A stretch of DNA of 11,555 nt, taken from NCBI GenBank assembly GCA_902768605.1, contig CACXLY010000075.1, forward strand, positions 1-11,555, in the 5' to 3' direction. This document shows positions 1,536 through 11,356 of the stretch, piece after piece. The notes below the pieces were generated by a model. That model was not told the DNA's origin, ran no database searches, and saw only the letters and a program-made list of their open reading frames with translations. This DNA comes from an uncultured Bacteroidales bacterium (GTDB lineage: Bacteria; Bacteroidota; Bacteroidia; Bacteroidales; Bacteroidaceae). Numbering within the stretch: position 1 is the first letter of the stretch; every line of letters begins with the position of its first letter. A program made the position numbers and the translations under genes.

Positions 1536-2819
1536 ATGATTATCAACAGGTTCATAATCCGCTCTCTTCTCATTTGTACTACCATATGCATTCTGGCCTT
1601 GCCCGTTTTGGCTGAAGAGCACGCGCAATCAGGGTATACTCTTCCTAAAGGGAAAGAGATATACATCCCGAAAGATTTGCGCGACAATGACTTCACGAGC
1701 AAAGAGTCCACGTGGAGCTACTACCGAATGGCTTGCACGCCCAATGTGGTCTGCTTTTGGGAGAAAGGGTTTGGCGACGACCTCAGCAAGGCTCCTGACC
1801 TCGATGGGCATCGCATGACCGTTGACCTGAATAATCTCCTGAGCCGCGTCGAGTACTTCTACAACGTCTATCGCGACATGATGGGTTTCCTGCGCCCTGG
1901 CAGCAAGGCCGACAAGTACCGCATGATGGTCATGCTCAAGTATTCCCTGGAAGGCACAGCTTATGGCGGCTGCTACGATAATGTCATTGGTGCCCTGTGG
2001 ATTGCTCCCAATCGTGTTCAGGACAAGACACTTAATTGCATTGCCCACGAGCTGGGGCACTCCTTCCAGATTCAGATTTCATGCGACGGAGAGTCACATG
2101 GCATGGGCGGCGGAATCTTTGAAACGAGTGCCCAATGGATGCTCTGGCAGGTCAACCCGAGATGGACGACGGACGAGAACTACCATTGGGAAGCCTTCAA
2201 GAAAGACATTCACCTGAGCCTCTTCCACCACAAGAACATGTATCACGCTCCCTTTGTGCTCGAGTACTGGAGCGTTCTGCATGGGCTGACTTATATGGCC
2301 GACATGTTCCGAGGAGGTTTGCAGGGAGAGGACTTCGTGCAGACCTATATGCGCATGTATCAGGTAGATGTGAAGAAGATGGGCGATGAACTGCTCGACT
2401 GCTACAGTCGTCTCATCACCTTTGACTTTCCAGACAAGCACAAGGAAAGCGCGCGCTATGCCTGCGAACTGCAGAGCGAACTGACAGACACGCTTGGCGG
2501 ATGGAAGAAGCCCGTCAATGTGCCTGAAACTTATGGCTTCAATGTGGACGAAATACCTCTACCCCCTGCAGGCAAGGACGTCAAAGTGCGCTTCCAAGGA
2601 CTTTCCAAAGAGGACAACGTAGGCTATCGATACAGACTTGTTGCTATCGACGAAGCAAACAACCCTACTTATCTTGATGTCAACTCAGAACATAAGAAAA
2701 CGCTTCGCTACACGAATCCTGGCAATATCAAAAAGCTTTATCTTGTCGTAGTAGGCTGTCCCCAAAAGGAATACATTGCCAGAGAGGCCGCATCATATCC
2801 GTATATCATCAAGTTTTAA
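1536..2819 (+). CDS. Secreted HExxH zinc-metallopeptidase-like protein (DUF6055-like)
   Basis: The 427-residue product has a hydrophobic signal peptide (residues 1-26, ending LALPVLA before EEHA). Its centre carries HELGHSFQ at 171-178, the HExxH zinc-binding and catalytic motif. Glu196, in the segment GGGIFETSAQW, lies 24 residues after the motif glutamate and could be the third zinc ligand of a gluzincin-type peptidase. Further on, about 340-427 looks like a separate beta-rich C-terminal domain (VKVRFQGL, YRYRLVAID, LYLVVVG). From memory the whole resembles the DUF6055 family of Bacteroidales exported proteins; that assignment is not verified and the substrate is unknown. It is flanked by short gaps of 34 and 57 bases with no promoter seen in either, suggesting co-transcription with the OmpA-like gene and the GH43 gene. 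Confidence 0.75.
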   Translation: MIINRFIIRSLLICTTICILALPVLAEEHAQSGYTLPKGKEIYIPKDLRDNDFTSKESTWSYYRMACTPNVVCFWEKGFGDDLSKAPDLDGHRMTVDLNNLLSRVEYFYNVYRDMMGFLRPGSKADKYRMMVMLKYSLEGTAYGGCYDNVIGALWIAPNRVQDKTLNCIAHELGHSFQIQISCDGESHGMGGGIFETSAQWMLWQVNPRWTTDENYHWEAFKKDIHLSLFHHKNMYHAPFVLEYWSVLHGLTYMADMFRGGLQGEDFVQTYMRMYQVDVKKMGDELLDCYSRLITFDFPDKHKESARYACELQSELTDTLGGWKKPVNVPETYGFNVDEIPLPPAGKDVKVRFQGLSKEDNVGYRYRLVAIDEANNPTYLDVNSEHKKTLRYTNPGNIKKLYLVVVGCPQKEYIAREAASYPYIIKF

Positions 2820-4414: not shown

Positions 4415-5341
4415 CTAATTCGGACGATAGTTCAGGCGGAGCGAGGCCTTGTCTTCGGTGGGGAAATCGCTTGGGACGGGTTGCGACACCTTTCCCGTTG
4501 CACACCATTCCGAGCCACGAAGCAGGAGCGTCTGGAAGCCTGCACATTGCATGGCAGGATTGTCGTCCAGGCTGTCTCCGCAATGACCAAGCATGATGTG
4601 GAACACCCTACCCTTGCCATATTTGACTGTAAAGACGAGCGGTTCCTCGCGCCCCGAGCCTCGCTGTTCCGTGGAAGAATAGGCCGTGTAGAGCAAGTCT
4701 TTGATGCCGCCGGGACCTCTCATCCTGTCGTACAGCTCGTCGGTAGCATGCTTCCATCGGGCAGGCAACCCCTTGGTGATGGGATGCGAGGCAGCACGGC
4801 AATTGAGCACAAACTCGTGCCTGAAGCCATGAGAGCCTCCGCCTCCGGGAGATGTGTCAGCCTGCAATGCTCCATCCTTCCAATAGAAATAGGGCCCTGA
4901 TGCCTCGTTCCTTCCTCCCCAGCCGCCGAGGGCTATCATCTCGTTGTAGGCAGGCCAGTCCGTGAAGGCATTGTCGGCAGCATGGTAAACCACCACTCCG
5001 CCGCCTCGCTGCACATAGTCCATGAAAGCGGCATTCATGGCAGCCGACCAGCCGTCTCCGTTATAGTCCAAGACCACAAGTTTGTACTTGCCGAAGTCCA
5101 CGGAGAAGTCCGACATGTCTTCTCCCTGTTTGGGAGAAACCGCCACATCGAGGCTGAAAAGCCCCGAGTTCTCCAGCGTCATCTTGATAGCCTGATGGCT
5201 GACGGGCCAGTTGTGGTTGTTCTGCCCGGTAATGATGACGCCACGAATAGGCTTCTTCGCATTGGCGCAGGCAATGGCCGAAAGCAACACAATGCACATC
5301 AACAGAATATGCCCGATACGCTTCATATTTTCAATCTTCAT
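4415..5341 (-). CDS. Exported ThuA-like domain protein
   Basis: The 308-residue product matches the ThuA-like family, a glutamine-amidotransferase-like fold found in sugar-metabolism loci. Visible family segments are VIITGQNNHNW (35-45), GGGVVVYHAADNAF (113-126), HPITKGLPARWKHATDELYD (186-205) and GKGRVFHIMLGH (242-253). The N-terminus is a signal peptide. Translation may start at Met1 (5341) or at Met6 (5326); Met6 gives a more typical signal sequence (MKRIGHILLMCIVLLSAIA), and the bases before it look repeat-like (GAATATTGAAATATGAAG), so 5326 is a serious alternative. Cleavage near Ala28 is likely; Cys25 is a poor lipobox. The biochemical activity of most exported ThuA-like proteins is not established. 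It is transcribed toward the GH43 gene and may be expressed from the promoter candidate at 5416-5423. Confidence 0.85.
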   Translation of the reverse strand: MKIENMKRIGHILLMCIVLLSAIACANAKKPIRGVIITGQNNHNWPVSHQAIKMTLENSGLFSLDVAVSPKQGEDMSDFSVDFGKYKLVVLDYNGDGWSAAMNAAFMDYVQRGGGVVVYHAADNAFTDWPAYNEMIALGGWGGRNEASGPYFYWKDGALQADTSPGGGGSHGFRHEFVLNCRAASHPITKGLPARWKHATDELYDRMRGPGGIKDLLYTAYSSTEQRGSGREEPLVFTVKYGKGRVFHIMLGHCGDSLDDNPAMQCAGFQTLLLRGSEWCATGKVSQPVPSDFPTEDKASLRLNYRPN

Positions 5342-5359
5342 ATTTCAATATTCAAGTTT

Positions 5360-5411
5360 TGGAAGTTATGATGGGAAGTTATAATGGGAAGTTATAATGG
5401 GGAGTTATGGT
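5360..5411. repeat. 13-bp tandem array, left arm
   Basis: Four contiguous 13-base units start at 5360, 5373, 5386 and 5399. Units 2 and 3 are identical (GGGAAGTTATAAT); units 1 and 4 differ at two or three bases. The array sits in what would be the 5' leader of the ThuA-like gene on the minus strand, and faces a related array in the opposite orientation at 5433-5484. Confidence 0.85.
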
Positions 5412-5415
5412 GGGC

Positions 5416-5423
5416 CAAATGTA
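5416..5423 (-). promoter_or_regulatory. Candidate -7 box for the ThuA-like gene
   Basis: Read on the minus strand this is TACATTTG, a match to the Bacteroidota -7 consensus TAnnTTTG. It would start a transcript near 5409 and leave a leader of about 70-80 bases before the ThuA-like start codon. No clear TTTG -33 element is seen about 20 bases upstream, so the call rests on the box and its position. It lies in the 21-base spacer between two inverted 13-bp arrays. Confidence 0.45.
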
Positions 5424-5432
5424 TCGGCTCCT

Positions 5433-5484
5433 CATAACTTCTCTTCTTAACTCCTAATCTTAACTCCTAATCTTAACTTCTCTT
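5433..5484. repeat. 13-bp tandem array, right arm (inverted)
   Basis: Four contiguous 13-base units start at 5433, 5446, 5459 and 5472. Units 2 and 3 are identical (CTTAACTCCTAAT), and the outer ones end CTTCTCTT. Read on the opposite strand the units contain GAAGTTA or GGAGTTA, as in the left arm, so the two arms form an inverted pair that could fold over the intervening 21 bases. The array lies directly after the stop codon of the thioredoxin-like gene and could serve as its terminator, although it lacks a U-tract. Confidence 0.8.
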
Positions 5485-5488
5485 CATA

Positions 5489-5986
5489 TTATTTCACCGC
5501 TTTTGGCGTCCAGTTCTTGAAGAAGCGCAGCACTTTCTCTTGATTGTAGCCCTGCCCCTCTTCCAGAAAGCTCGAGTCCTGAATGTGAATCAACCTGCCT
5601 TCGCCATCGAGGACCACGAAGACGGGAAACCCGAAGCGGCCGCAGCCCGCGAGCCTCTTCATCAGGGCCGCCATCTGCTGCTGCTTTTCCTCACTCTCCG
5701 ACTTACGCGGATTGTAGTTGACGTGGATGTACTCGAAGTTCTCGTCAATCAGTTTGCTGATGGCCGTATCCTTTGAGATGAAGTCAGCAAACCTGAGGCA
5801 CCACGGACACCAGTTGCCACCCACCTGACAGACCACGAACTTGCCCTCCGCTTTCGCCTTCTCGAGAGCCCCGTCAATCTGCTCGATGGGATTGATGTCC
5901 TCGTTATAGACCTTTTTAAGCGCAGTCTGAGCCTCGGCGCATGCGGCCAGCAGAACCGCAAAGAATGTTATGATAGTCCTTTTCAT
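5489..5986 (-). CDS. Exported thioredoxin-fold protein (CPWC active site)
   Basis: The 165-residue product has an N-terminal export signal ([20 protein letters not shown]). The stretch LAAC ending at Cys16 is a good lipobox, so it may be a lipoprotein; cleavage after Ala19 is the alternative. The active site is [10 protein letters not shown] with Cys60 and Cys63, and the expected cis-proline is Pro121 in [11 protein letters not shown]. The insert [20 protein letters not shown] (92-111) makes an extra helix, as in thioredoxin_7/DUF255-like proteins. The likely role is thiol-disulfide exchange or reduction outside the cytoplasm; the substrate is unknown. It is the third gene of a small operon. 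Its ATG lies 4 bases after the stop of the reconstructed YbjQ frame, or overlaps the stop by 4 bases in the frame as sequenced. Confidence 0.87.
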
Positions 5987-6309
5987 TCAGTCAGATAACT
6001 ACTGCCGTTCCGCTTGTGGCCACCATAAGCATAGAGCCGCCCGCTTCCGATGGTTTCATAGTCGATATCGATGCCCACGACGGCACCAGTTCCCATGACC
6101 TGAGCGCGGTCCATCATCTCGCGAAGGGAGGTTTCCTTGGCCTCGATAAGAACCTTCTCATAGCTGCCGGCACGTCCGCCGAAGAAGTCGCGGATTCCAG
6201 CCAAGAAATCCTTGAGCACGTTAGCACCGATAATAGTTTCTCCTGTCACCACTCCCTTATACTCGCGAATGGGATGGCCTTCAATCTGCGGGGTCGTTGA
6301 TAGTATCAT
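5983..6309 (-). CDS. YbjQ/UPF0145 family protein with frameshifted C-terminus
   Basis: Residues 1-90 match the YbjQ (UPF0145, DUF74) family along their whole length: [49 protein letters not shown], then [13 protein letters not shown]. The family is known as a small pentameric fold of unclear function, sometimes described as heavy-metal binding. After Gly90 the frame reads [18 protein letters not shown], which is not the family ending. The neighbouring frame gives [15 protein letters not shown] and a TGA at 5991-5993, which is the family C-terminus. One extra base in the CCC run at 6040-6042 (plus strand) explains this. The repaired product would be about 105 residues, the normal length. It may be a true mutation or a sequencing error. 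The start overlaps the stop of the upstream 52-residue gene as ATGA. Confidence 0.88.
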
Positions 6310-7598: not shown

Positions 7599-7606
7599 TA
7601 CCTTTG
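7599..7606 (+). promoter_or_regulatory. -7 box of the zinc-hook coiled-coil gene
   Basis: TACCTTTG matches TAnnTTTG. It is embedded in ATTTTTTCGTACCTTTGCAG, nearly the same as the sequence at the promoter of the BSP-type gene (10482 onward). No TTTG -33 element is evident. The leader to the ATG at 7706 would be about 90 bases and AT-rich. Confidence 0.6.
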
Positions 7607-7705
7607 CAGGCGCAAAACATTTTTTGCTAATTCAAAACAAATAATTTCAAATTTCTAAAGGGCAAGGCATCAAGAGCCTACAACCCCTATAATATCGAAT
7701 CACGC

Positions 7706-10435
7706 ATGAATTTCTTCAAAAGGAAAGATAGGGACGAGCAGAAGCCGGTGGAGCAAGAGAGTCAGCCCCGGGAGGCTGCTGGGGCTCCCGCAGAGGGCGG
7801 TATCAACTTCATCATCGAGGACACTACGGACAATACGCCGGGACGGCGCGATGCCCGCATCCTGAACTCCACGCAGCTTCAGCGCGTCAAGGATGCCAAG
7901 CGACTGGCGGAAACGAAGTTGCAGGGACTGGAGGAAAGCCTGGAACGCCTTAAGGCTCAGCAGCAATGGCTGAGGCGCTTCAACGAAACGAACATGATAC
8001 TGGAACGCGAGAAGAAGCGTCTCTTCGAACTTGGCAAGCAGAAAGCCATCTTTGCCAAAGATGCGGCCATGCTGGACCGCTACGACCTCTTCGAGGGCAT
8101 CCACGGCACCTACCAGAAGCTTGCTGTCGTGAAGGACCAGATAGGCAGGGACAAGCGCGGACTGAGCATCTTGGAGCGCGAGACGGACGAGAACCGCCAG
8201 AAGATGATTGACCAGGAGAAGCGCGAGGGGCAGGCACGGGAGGTGCTCAAGAATGCCACCGTCACCCTGCAAAACACCTTCGACCACGTCTGCTCGGCCT
8301 ATCAGCTGACGGGCGCTAACGAGTCGCTCGAAGCTGAAACGGCCTTCCTGCTCGACTATAATAATAAGGTAAAGGAGGAGATGACGGCGCTCTCATCGCT
8401 CATTAGCGAGAAGGAGAGGCAGACGGCTGCGCTTGCCGCTGAGCTGGAAAAGATTCGCACAAGGCATCAGGGCATGGAGATTCACGAGAGCATGCTGCTC
8501 CACAGCGAAGCAATACTCCTGCAGCTCAAGCATTTGGAAGACAGGAACAAACGCCGTGCCGACCTCCAACTGAAACGTCAGAATGCCATCAAGCGTCAGA
8601 ACGAGGAAAACGAGTTGCTGGGCAAAGCTTTCGGGCAGTTTCAGGACGTCGTCTCGCAGACAGAGACGGCAGATGCGGAGCTGAGCATGCACCGCTCCTA
8701 TATTCAGGGACAGGACGGTCTGATGCTTCAGGAACGCGCCCTGATGCTGAAAGGGCGCAGGCAACAGCTGCTCTCTGCCTTGTCGCTCTGGAAGCGCATC
8801 AGCACTGGCTACGAGAGCATCGAGGAGAGGAGCAAGCGGGTGACGGCTCTGCGCCTGCAAATACAGCATCTGGAGGACGGCGTGCGCGAGCTTGAGACTG
8901 AGGCGGGCAAGGCTCAGCGGCTTTGTAAGGAGAAGGAATACACCTACTTGCTGAGCAAGGGACAGGACATCATCCAGCTCAGGGCTGACCTCAAGGAGGG
9001 CGTCAGCTGCTCCGTCTGCGGCGCCACGCATCACCCCTATCACAGCGACACGATGCTCGACCAGAGCAAACTCATCGGACAGATGAAGACGGACTACGAG
9101 CTGCTTGCCTCTGAGTCGAATGCCAAGCAGCAGCAACTCGCCGAGATGCAGGCAGAACTGGCAACGGCAAAGGGGCAGCTCAGCGCCGAAGAGGAAGCCC
9201 TCAACGCCATCCGCATCCGTCAGAACGAGGATGTGCTGGAGTGGAAACTCTATGCGCAGCTTGACCCGACGTTCGCAGAATGTTCTGAGAGCACGAATCT
9301 CGCTGCCAGGACATCCATGTTGAGGCAATTCATTGAGAACGTCAGCCGAGATGCAGAGAAGGCTGAGAAGGAACTCGAGACGTTCACTTTCCACCAAAGC
9401 AGCATCGCCAAGATAAGCGAGGAGCTGCAGAAGCTGGAACAGAAGAAGAGCGAGATTAATGTCCGCTTGGGCGAACTCAATACGGGCCTGCAAGTGCTCA
9501 GCAGAGAGGTGGAACAGACGGGCAACCAGCTGGAAAGCACCAACAAGCAGTTCACGCGTATCTACGAGAACATGCAGGCTGCCATCACCATCAAGGACTG
9601 GTATGCTGTCTGGCAAAAAGCGCCGGAACAGCTCTACGAGAAGATTCAGAAGTTCAGCACCGACTGGTTTGCTACCGAACAGGAGATTACGGCAAGGCAG
9701 GCTGCCCTCGATGTGGAGCTTGCCAACCTCGAAGGCATGAGGTCGCAACTGCAGTCGCTCGCCCGCTCTTTGCAAGTCACAGAAAAGCGGGCAGAAGACA
9801 TCAAAGGACTGAAGGCTGAGAATGCAAAGGCATATCAACAAATGATTCCGGAGCGCGATGCCAAGACGTTGCATCAAAAGCATTTACAAGCCGTGAAAGC
9901 AGCGCAGGAACAATACGAGAACGAGTGCAGCAGGATGGACGATATCCGTCACGACAACGACATCACTCAGGGTCGTCACGACTACTACCTGGCACACATC
10001 GACAGGCTCGAAGGAGAACAGACTCAGCTCAATGAGAAGCTCGACCTCTGGATGCACGCCTTCAACCTGCAGCACCCGCCTGTCCAGTTGGGCGAACTCG
10101 ACGAAGTCTTTGCCGACGGCAAGGATTGGAGCAAGATTCGCAGCAACTTGAAGCAAATCAACACCGACATGCTGTTGTGTCAGGCAAAGGTGGAGGACCT
10201 GAACAGCCGCATCATTGCCCTCGAAGCAGAGGACGGGCGTTGTAGCGCTCAATCGCCTGACATACAAGAGACTATCGCAGCAAAGCAGCAGACGCTCACC
10301 AAGCAGCGAAGCGAGACAATGATGCAGATAGCTCGACTCGCCGTTCAGCTGGAAGACCACGAGCGCGCACTCTCTGCCGAACGAAACTCGGCTGAGATGT
10401 CTGCGCGAAGTCATCCGGAAATAAACCTCGCTTAA
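7706..10435 (+). CDS. Headless Rad50/SbcC-like coiled-coil protein with zinc hook
   Basis: This intact 909-residue protein is almost wholly charged, heptad-like coiled coil from about residue 55 to the end. At its centre is CSVCGATHHP (Cys435, Cys438), the CxxC zinc hook by which Rad50/SbcC dimers join. The arms on either side are of similar length (about 380 and 470 residues), as in an antiparallel SbcC arm pair. What is missing is the ATPase: there is no P-loop GxxGxGKS in the N-terminus, which is a short Pro/Glu-rich tail (residues 1-50), and no LSGG signature or Walker B near the C-terminus, which ends SHPEINLA. No SbcD nuclease gene is adjacent. The segment AMLDRYDLFEGIHGTYQKLA (121-140) recalls the arm region of SbcC. 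It has its own promoter. Its function is unknown; a tethering or structural role is inference. Confidence 0.75.
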   Translation: MNFFKRKDRDEQKPVEQESQPREAAGAPAEGGINFIIEDTTDNTPGRRDARILNSTQLQRVKDAKRLAETKLQGLEESLERLKAQQQWLRRFNETNMILEREKKRLFELGKQKAIFAKDAAMLDRYDLFEGIHGTYQKLAVVKDQIGRDKRGLSILERETDENRQKMIDQEKREGQAREVLKNATVTLQNTFDHVCSAYQLTGANESLEAETAFLLDYNNKVKEEMTALSSLISEKERQTAALAAELEKIRTRHQGMEIHESMLLHSEAILLQLKHLEDRNKRRADLQLKRQNAIKRQNEENELLGKAFGQFQDVVSQTETADAELSMHRSYIQGQDGLMLQERALMLKGRRQQLLSALSLWKRISTGYESIEERSKRVTALRLQIQHLEDGVRELETEAGKAQRLCKEKEYTYLLSKGQDIIQLRADLKEGVSCSVCGATHHPYHSDTMLDQSKLIGQMKTDYELLASESNAKQQQLAEMQAELATAKGQLSAEEEALNAIRIRQNEDVLEWKLYAQLDPTFAECSESTNLAARTSMLRQFIENVSRDAEKAEKELETFTFHQSSIAKISEELQKLEQKKSEINVRLGELNTGLQVLSREVEQTGNQLESTNKQFTRIYENMQAAITIKDWYAVWQKAPEQLYEKIQKFSTDWFATEQEITARQAALDVELANLEGMRSQLQSLARSLQVTEKRAEDIKGLKAENAKAYQQMIPERDAKTLHQKHLQAVKAAQEQYENECSRMDDIRHDNDITQGRHDYYLAHIDRLEGEQTQLNEKLDLWMHAFNLQHPPVQLGELDEVFADGKDWSKIRSNLKQINTDMLLCQAKVEDLNSRIIALEAEDGRCSAQSPDIQETIAAKQQTLTKQRSETMMQIARLAVQLEDHERALSAERNSAEMSARSHPEINLA

Positions 10436-10540: not shown

Positions 10541-11356
10541 ATGAAACGCACACTCACACTCATCGTTGCTGCCGCTTTCGCTATCGGCAGCCAGGCTCAA
10601 GCCATCTACAAGGCAACTAAGTACCACGCTCCCATCAAGGTGGAGAAGAAGTGGAAAGGCTACAACCCCGGAGACGTTGAATTCCACGACGAAGCTCCCG
10701 AAAGCGAAGGTTCTAAGATTTACCATAACATCATCCCCAACCCTGCTCCTTATATTCAGGAGAATGCCCTTCGCGTGCTGCAGACGCTCTATTGGGGACC
10801 GAAAGACCCGAATGTGCCTCGTCTGAAGCGCATCGTCTATACCATCAAGGACTATAACGGCATCAGCGAGAAATACGGCAGCGGCGACTATGTCGGCATC
10901 CGTTACTCTACAAACTGGATAGAACGCTGCTTTGCCGGCAACGACACTTTGCGCCTTGACTACGAGACCCGCGGTGTCCTCTATCACGAGCTTACCCATG
11001 CCTACCAGCTCTCGCCAGAAGGTTGCGGTGAGTACGACAACAAGAGCGAATACTGGCTCTTCATCGAAGGCCTTGCCGATGCTGTTCGCGTGGCTTGCGG
11101 ATGCTTCGACCAGGACTTCAGCAGCAAGGACCGCACCCGTGGCGACACCTGGCGCAAGGGCTATCGCGTGACCGGCTACTTCCTCTACTGGCTGCAGCTC
11201 AACAAGGACAAGGACTTCATCCGCAAGTTCAATCGCAGCGCCGTAGAACTCAAGCCATGGAGTTGGGACAAAGCCATGAAGCACATCCTCGGCGACAAGC
11301 CCGAGAACACGACCGACGCGCTCTGGCAGGAATACATGAAGGCAGTAGGAGACTAA
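10541..11356 (+). CDS. Secreted basic secretory protein (BSP) family HExxH protein
   Basis: The 271-residue product has a clean signal peptide (MKRTLTLIVAAAFAIGSQAQ, cleaved near 20-21). The core HELTHAYQ (149-156) is the zinc-binding HExxH motif, followed by FIEGLADAVR (174-183) with Glu176. This pairing is the hallmark of the plant and bacterial basic secretory protein family of putative metallopeptidases. Preceding strands such as VYTIKDYNG and the final helix DALWQEYMKAVG fit the family, and the length is close to the usual size. Peptidase activity in this family is predicted, not generally proven. It would act outside the cell or in the periplasm. It is the second HExxH exported protein in the window, but unlike the one at 1536-2819 it has the EGLAD motif, so the two are not recent duplicates. 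Confidence 0.88.
   Translation: MKRTLTLIVAAAFAIGSQAQAIYKATKYHAPIKVEKKWKGYNPGDVEFHDEAPESEGSKIYHNIIPNPAPYIQENALRVLQTLYWGPKDPNVPRLKRIVYTIKDYNGISEKYGSGDYVGIRYSTNWIERCFAGNDTLRLDYETRGVLYHELTHAYQLSPEGCGEYDNKSEYWLFIEGLADAVRVACGCFDQDFSSKDRTRGDTWRKGYRVTGYFLYWLQLNKDKDFIRKFNRSAVELKPWSWDKAMKHILGDKPENTTDALWQEYMKAVGD

Follow-up and report, generated by a model that had tools for sequence, protein, structure and literature searches.

A headless SbcC-derived zinc-hook coiled-coil protein in Bacteroidaceae

A zinc-hook rod and its relatives

We analysed a stretch of 11,555 nucleotides from an uncultured Bacteroidales bacterium of the Bacteroidaceae (contig CACXLY010000075.1 of assembly GCA_902768605.1), referred to here as the window (Table 1). 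Its main subject is an unbroken reading frame of 909 codons. The preliminary description of this DNA had claimed that the frame encodes a zinc hook between two long coiled arms without an ATP-binding cassette (ABC) ATPase head, and this claim stands: the protein is a rod with a CSVCGATHHPYH zinc hook, in the pattern C435-x-x-C438-G-x-x-H-H-P-Y-H, between two long arms, and it has no ABC ATPase head.

Table 1. Features of the window (positions in nucleotides)
Feature	Position	Strand	Remarks
DUF6055 protein	1536-2819	+	E 2.3e-109; between OmpA-family protein and GH43 enzyme
ThuA-like, thioredoxin-like and YbjQ genes	4415-6309	-	ordinary
TACCTTTGC	7599..7607	+	resembles Bacteroidota -7 promoter element
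Headless SbcC-derived zinc-hook coiled-coil protein, 909 aa	7706..10435	+	open reading frame (ORF), family membership, purifying selection
Residues 1-54, variable N-tail	7706..7867	+	starts MNFFKRK; no predicted structure; position corresponds to SbcD helix-loop-helix of earlier branches
Residues 55-419, N-terminal coil arm	7868..8962	+	K71-C435 spacing 364 in all aligned rows
Residues 435-448, zinc hook	9008..9049	+	CSVCGATHHPYHSD
Residues 450-902, C-terminal coil arm	9053..10411	+	C435-W808 spacing 373 in all aligned headless rows
BSP-type peptidase (PF04450)	10541-11356	+	clustered relative directly after the headless gene in 13/24 loci

An AlphaFold2 model built on a 64-row alignment (A2) contains helices only, over residues 55-419 and 450-902 with short breaks, and zero strands; residues 1-54 are unstructured. 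The mean pLDDT of this model is 79 and its pTM 0.34, so the model does not fix how the rod runs in space, and the hook loop is of low confidence. In the window protein, no Pfam head or hook model scored over its cut-off, and the SMC hinge (PF06470) gave no match at E values up to 1. Searching NCBIfam returned coiled-coil similarity to SMC, Rad50 and the archaeal ASRP family, all of it below threshold (21.6 bits for the ASRP model NF045487, with its cut-off at 300 bits). As described in the available part of PMC9389158, the ASRPs (ClsN, Sph1/2) also carry a zinc hook in long coils; they differ in having Walker A and B motifs, and some candidates without these motifs were discarded there. PF00149 (metallophosphoesterase) was absent from the three headless proteins scanned (window, L095 and L087), and no Pfam or NCBIfam model scored over its cut-off in any member scanned (those three for Pfam; the window protein, P0212 and P0197 for NCBIfam). 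A fold search was uninformative, its top rows being long coils of MukB, condensin, Wadjet, Smc5/6 and Rad50 at TM-scores of about 0.1-0.16. A defence library gave weak LmuB coil similarity for the window protein and none for P0212. The monomer prediction and the profile search, both of which the preliminary description had suggested as checks, thus agree, and a hidden ABC head formed from the two ends of the protein is ruled out by zero strands in two AlphaFold2 models together with the lack of any head profile.

Next, we examined the relatives of this protein. Two protein searches gave 376 and 305 hits, and the best 120 of each comprised 215 different relatives, of which 201 are at least 800 aa long; the 14 shorter ones stayed outside the following counts. 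Among the matches listed, the C-x-x-C-G hook is kept in 201/201 and Walker A (G....GK[ST]) occurs in 0/201. Three other members contain LSGGE-like strings (at residues 17, 104 and 170), which are due to chance and lie in the wrong place for a signature. Where the source records name them, the relatives are called "hypothetical protein" or, for two of them, "SbcCD ATPase subunit", although they have no ATPase. Labels of the metagenome-assembled genomes that carry the named loci read Bacteroidales, Bacteroidaceae or Prevotellaceae, and many of these genomes are from rumen or other ruminant samples.

When 251 genomes from the family of genome G005 were sampled, 63 had a match: 29 headless proteins (29-82% identity), 31 long frames of 1195-1356 aa (18-28% identity) and three others, with frames of 615, 615 and 1130. 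No genome in this sample had both the headless and the long kind, with at most three candidates scored per genome. Under the same limit, a sample of the order queried with P0212 gave no headless match in 294 genomes besides G005; it gave three long frames of 1244-1267 aa. Viral contigs yielded 13 pattern matches and zero relatives of the headless protein.

The arms of these proteins are fixed in length. Both spacings given in Table 1 hold in 25/25 headless rows and in 64/64 rows of A2; the N-terminal spacing is also kept in 19/19 headed relatives, described below, in which the C-terminal spacing is 370-375. After realignment, the 25 headless rows had 0 gap columns in both arms at a mean identity of 38-40% (minimum 26-29%), and the 19 headed sisters had 0 and 9 gap columns at 28-31%. 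In this the headless proteins resemble length-conserved coiled-coil spacers, whose sequence diverges at constant arm length; the examples in the available text of PMC5082667 differ in having no zinc hook, except for Rad50 itself. In eight comparisons with the window gene, nonsynonymous divergence (pN, 0.11-0.17) lay well below synonymous divergence (pS, 0.60-0.74), at ratios of 0.04-0.16 that are rough because synonymous sites are near saturation. The hook region had a pN of 0.006-0.09, and the N-tail evolved fast (0.20-0.50). Judged by these substitutions, the window gene is under purifying selection. The tail itself often begins with an M.FF.KK-like motif, seen in the window protein (7706-7726) and found in 128/200 relatives of at least 840 aa vs 2/357 control proteins, with a pattern chosen after the sequences were seen.

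Descent from SbcC and SbcD

To place the headless proteins we turned to the long relatives. Of the 31 long frames we retrieved 20 and could read 19, as a longer ORF overlapping L069 had masked it in the filter. In 19/19 loci assessed, sbcD lies directly upstream of the headed sbcC, and the hooks of these proteins follow C[PS][VLI]CG..HHPY. One of them, L068 (1252 aa), has AAA_23 and SbcC_Walker_B over cut-off and matches PRK10246 SbcC at 5.6e-90, below that model's cut-off. Window residues 55-905 align to L068 residues 234-1084 with a constant offset of 179 at all 19 printed positions in that range; therefore, the missing part of the window protein corresponds to the two head lobes. The alignment ends before the C-terminal lobe of L068; the window protein lacks that lobe, with its Walker B and LSGGE signature.

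Trees and arm comparisons used the window protein, 4/23 named loci and 20/29 headless sample matches. Two matches with internal stops (G127, G195) and three more (G086, G120, G135) stayed outside, and G004 (the same as L005) was unused. In a careful tree with three 1150-aa SbcC rows as outgroup, the 25 headless rows form a single clade (100/100) beside the 1250-aa SbcC. A quick tree, rooted on a 100* branch, places the 1150-aa and 1030-aa SbcC types (13 rows) on one side of that branch and the headless and 1250-aa proteins on the other. As read from alignment and tree, the coil of the headless proteins shares descent with the SbcC coil, and antiparallel arms around a C-x-x-C hook are common to both. 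The headless protein differs from SbcC/Rad50 of the SbcCD and Mre11-Rad50 complexes in having neither an N- nor a C-terminal ABC lobe, no adjoining sbcD and, in most genomes searched, no SbcCD found. The preliminary description had also held that this is not a simple broken sbcC, and we agree: a recent truncation or sequencing error is ruled out by 25 rows in one clade with conserved length, and the headless proteins are a family.

Part of SbcD also appears to persist. An SbcD model (alignment A1) run over 44 genomes unexpectedly picked up the headless frame in G162 (E 6.8e-5, SbcD positions 358-411) and in G203 (E 2.5e-4, positions 361-411). A hidden Markov model (HMM) of the SbcD C-terminus matched 22/225 headless proteins at domain E <0.01 (best 1.1e-8), in every case directly before the coil. 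With the first 140 residues scanned, 23/225 headless N-termini scored above the best of 4500 shuffles, and 0/32 headed SbcC matched (best E 28). In the reverse direction, an HMM from 15 loci, picked after these matches were known, was run on a set of 357: 14/19 SbcD C-termini (ten at E <0.05) came out ahead of all proteins that are not SbcD, and the remaining five lay among chance matches or had none. A profile-profile comparison of the SbcD C-terminus with the headless N-terminus gave E 1.7e-10 over 36 columns. The SbcD motif LDLARxxYxxRYGxxMPxEL matches LTAEEAARQWFxxxFGTxMPEEV at the early headless N-terminus, and the AlphaFold2 model of P0212 has a helix at 36-48, a loop and a helix at 54-74 at this site, at moderate confidence. 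What is kept is the SbcD C-terminal helix-loop-helix (HLH); unlike SbcD/Mre11, the headless proteins have no nuclease or capping domain, and the HLH piece is not found in the window's branch. In Mre11-Rad50, according to the accessible parts of PMC7260605 and PMC3175470, the HLH binds the coil root.

In the tree, the HLH is carried by the early headless branches; the window protein belongs to a single clade (100/100) made up of the ten rows that lack it. Of the 15 rows labelled as carrying it, four (L089, L093, L094, L100) were labelled by eye; L093 was not among the proteins searched with the HMM, which gives weak support or none for the remaining three. These results point to a history in which a Bacteroidales SbcC (Rad50) lost both ATPase lobes, along with the SbcD nuclease, and kept coil and hook. 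Most simply, the end of sbcD would have become fused by a deletion to the beginning of the sbcC coil, and the nuclease and the C-terminal lobe would have been lost as well. The HLH, which grips the coil root in SbcCD, would then have been left fused to the coil start in the early headless proteins and lost once, later, in the window's branch; the order of the deletions is our inference. The same SbcD-then-SbcC order occurs in Mre11-Rad50 fusions of Mimivirus, plasmids and a phage. As far as the available text of PMC3175470 goes, those fusions have an Mre11-like and a Rad50-like domain, with one P-loop segment not observed in two cases, whereas the headless clade has neither ATP lobe nor nuclease. 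The family is thus what remains of an sbcDC operon after loss of the nuclease and head lobes, a finding that appears to be new; no headless Rad50/SbcC family turned up in a search of open-licence papers, as far as their available text goes.

The headed sisters have lost catalysis as well. The ATPase motifs are ruined in frames that are intact in 4/19 headed SbcC: Walker A, signature and Walker B in L073 (genome G029), L076 (G099) and L079 (G096), and signature and Walker B in L077 (G078). The C-x-x-C hook is intact in all four. The SbcD partners of L073 and L076 are also without active-site (metal-binding) residues, and those of L077 and L079 keep the residues checked. These loci, with frames and hooks intact, appear to encode pseudo-SbcCD complexes. 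The four proteins fall on three branches, a single clade being rejected by the approximately unbiased (AU) test (p 1.1e-5), with a reserve for L076 and L079, which sit on long branches. Thus, catalysis was repeatedly lost and the rod retained in this group.

Such losses might suggest that the headless gene is itself a decaying remnant, a pseudogene on its way out, in keeping with its descent by loss, the decayed active sites in other SbcCD of the group and a stop inside 2/29 headless sample matches. We consider this extremely improbable. The hook is intact in every listed match of at least 800 aa, the arms have zero indels in the 25 rows and 64 aligned homologues, pN is far below pS, and an upstream element recurs (see below).

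SbcCD, SMC and neighbouring genes

The preliminary description had called for a survey of homologues and of resident SbcCD. Head loss is common to every clade member read. SbcC (PF13558, SbcC_Walker_B, over cut-off) and a strong SbcD match co-occur in the same 9/42 headless genomes; in the other 33/42 we found neither. In the 16 genomes nearest to the window neither SbcC nor SbcD is over threshold; ten of them show weak SbcD-model matches below cut-off, in frames of 360-441 aa, and G014 has a weak SbcD match with alignment A1 (2.7e-4), with strong matches in 0/16. RecN is over cut-off in 38/42 headless genomes, and one further copy has an internal stop (G016); since recN is nearly everywhere, genome incompleteness does not explain the absence of SbcCD. 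PF13558 was over cut-off in 24/31 sample genomes with a long frame and missed the four ATPase-dead SbcC along with three more; a copy that is inactive could therefore go unnoticed. The SbcCD status of the window's own genome is taken from these kin. Separately, ten genomes have a second protein of 1138-1152 aa with very strong SbcC_Walker_B scores (L117 in G058; G017, G149, G189, G249 and others), which we take to be MukB/JetC-like.

These counts bear on the proposal, also made in the preliminary description, that the rod modulates the real SbcCD. Such a regulator would pair or compete with full-length SbcC via the hook, or occupy SbcD via the coil root, and SbcC descent together with the SbcD docking helix of early branches would allow it in the nine genomes that have both proteins. 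As a general role, this does not fit the 33/42 genomes, all 16 close ones among them, in which neither was found over threshold (an absence qualified by the limited sensitivity of PF13558). Furthermore, the resident SbcC in the nine is of a different type, with hooks CPxCGx... or CPVCRQP, none HHPYH, and gapped arms. We therefore regard regulation of SbcCD as distinctly unlikely.

A split ATPase, in which another gene supplies the heads and the complex is still an SMC-like motor, is very unlikely in our judgment. The coil roots are retained and could dock a head, RecN is present, and frames of 365-415 aa with weak SbcC_Walker_B similarity exist; the latter are presumably RecF, by size. With TIGR00618 and PF13558, however, no SbcC was over cut-off in the 16 close genomes, and no head gene was seen beside the headless gene in its neighbourhoods. 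Six of the small Walker A proteins and weak TIGR00618 matches in the close genomes were looked at and rejected as heads: Pfam identifies L028 as TsaE, which L027 and L033 resemble, and L025, L026 and L029 are other ABC proteins, judged by sequence.

We also asked which SMC proteins these genomes contain. Over 23 genomes TIGR02168 gave only sub-cut-off matches, mostly coil segments; therefore, the hinge model was used. It matched in 0/51 genomes (headless, headed and three other Bacteroidaceae). In a control set it was found in 10/14 named genomes and missed E. coli, Caulobacter, Bacteroides ihuae and Sulfolobus. Caulobacter has SMC, so the absence is not certain. The headless/headed Bacteroidaceae group thus seems to be without canonical SMC, matching a Hi-C study whose available text describes two Bacteroidetes without a condensin homologue and an arm-alignment signal in one, B. 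caecimuris (PMC10197239).

One possible role is that of a chromosome tether or bridge: in bacteria that have no known condensins, the rod would connect stretches of DNA with each other or with the envelope. Besides the missing hinge and the Hi-C signal, the descent from a DNA-repair complex is consistent with it, and the M.FF.KK-like start, a pattern picked post hoc, could anchor the protein to the membrane or a partner. On the other hand, the protein has no recognised DNA-binding domain and no ATPase for loop extrusion, residues 1-50 of the window protein carry a net charge of -3, and the hinge control was incomplete. We rate this reading, a special case of the one favoured below, as rather unlikely.

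The neighbourhood names no partner. hisS lies upstream on the opposite strand in 19/24 headless loci (HisS by Pfam in L001) and is not in the window; sbcD adjoins the headless gene in 0/24. In several close relatives of the window a BSP peptidase-like protein, then queC and queF, follow downstream, and the count of this peptidase in Table 1 is affected by antisense ORFs that hid the gene in the window and some other loci. In-frame N-terminal extensions (L093, L097, L102) and extra ORFs (L091, L101) were considered as longer fusions and rejected; they are probably antisense readings across hisS.

The preliminary description had also given the gene its own promoter. In 12/13 loci checked, including the window, a TAnnTTTG lies no more than 220 bases upstream of the gene start, and in 10 of these at 27-32 bases; in the window and L020 it lies only further off (107 and 121 bases). 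Within the window, TANNTTTGC is not rarer than chance (3 sites vs 1.29 expected), and a sigma-70-type scan gave zero promoters upstream of the window gene. At 7599-7607, TACCTTTGC resembles the -7 consensus of Bacteroidota promoters. The headless gene therefore likely has its own promoter.

A probable spacer or tether without a motor

Comparison of sequences establishes descent of the coil, loss of the heads, an HLH remnant in early branches, fixed arm length and a conserved hook. As the preliminary description anticipated, such a protein must work in some way that is independent of ATP-driven head engagement. We think it probable, short of confident, that it is an ATP-independent, zinc-dimerised spacer or tether. 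By analogy with known Rad50 hooks, two copies would be joined by one zinc ion and four hook cysteines into a rod or V, each arm of which would be about 54 nm long (364 residues at about 0.15 nm per residue). The two putative partners at the free arm ends would be kept a set distance apart. With zinc as the bridge, both ends free and no source of energy, a rod of this kind would suit a role as spacer or tether. The available parts of two papers describe Rad50 hooks as constitutive dimer joints (PMC6969161) and report extreme stability for a hook peptide, with log K12 of 20.74 (PMC5093744). The M.FF.KK-like start and two blocks conserved in the headless proteins, around the hook (residues 405-475) and near 590-597, suggest themselves as partner sites to look for.

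Several points weigh against a spacer built from an SbcDC remnant. The N-terminal arm is equally fixed in the 19 headed sisters, and vertebrate Rad50 likewise has a coil of conserved length (PMC5082667, in its available text); because of both, fixed arm length is inherited and no proof of a spacer role. Arm gap columns in ten 1150-type SbcC (16 and 45, at 24-26% mean identity) and three 1030-type SbcC (117 and 224) come from sets that are more diverged or very small and not identity-matched, and are a loose control. Several of the 22 SbcD-tail hits are near-copies, the window protein itself has zero hits with that HMM, and the HLH match is short (36 columns at 11% identity). To these come the stops in G127 and G195 and the near-saturated synonymous sites. 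Finally, the headless gene has no constant operon partner across loci, so its neighbours do not reveal a cargo.

Given these caveats, we still favour the spacer or tether. More tentatively, and with considerable doubt, the zinc-clasped rod itself, not the ATPase or nuclease, may be what selection maintains, as a motorless structural element and possibly a chromosome or envelope tether in bacteria without a known condensin. As part of the same doubtful reading, catalytic parts would have been lost at least four times in the rows sampled (three ATPase-dead branches and one headless clade).

In most discussions the arms and hook of Rad50/SbcC figure as helpers of the ATPase heads. The clade described here has the hook and exact-length arms but neither heads nor nuclease, in genomes where mostly no SbcCD was found; nature has thereby set tether and motor apart, as in an experiment, and provided a direct system for asking what the rod does alone. 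It bears on the published question, as posed in the available text of PMC10197239, of what organises Bacteroidetes chromosomes without known condensins. Taken together, these results suggest that in some gut and rumen bacteria the arms alone do a structural job.

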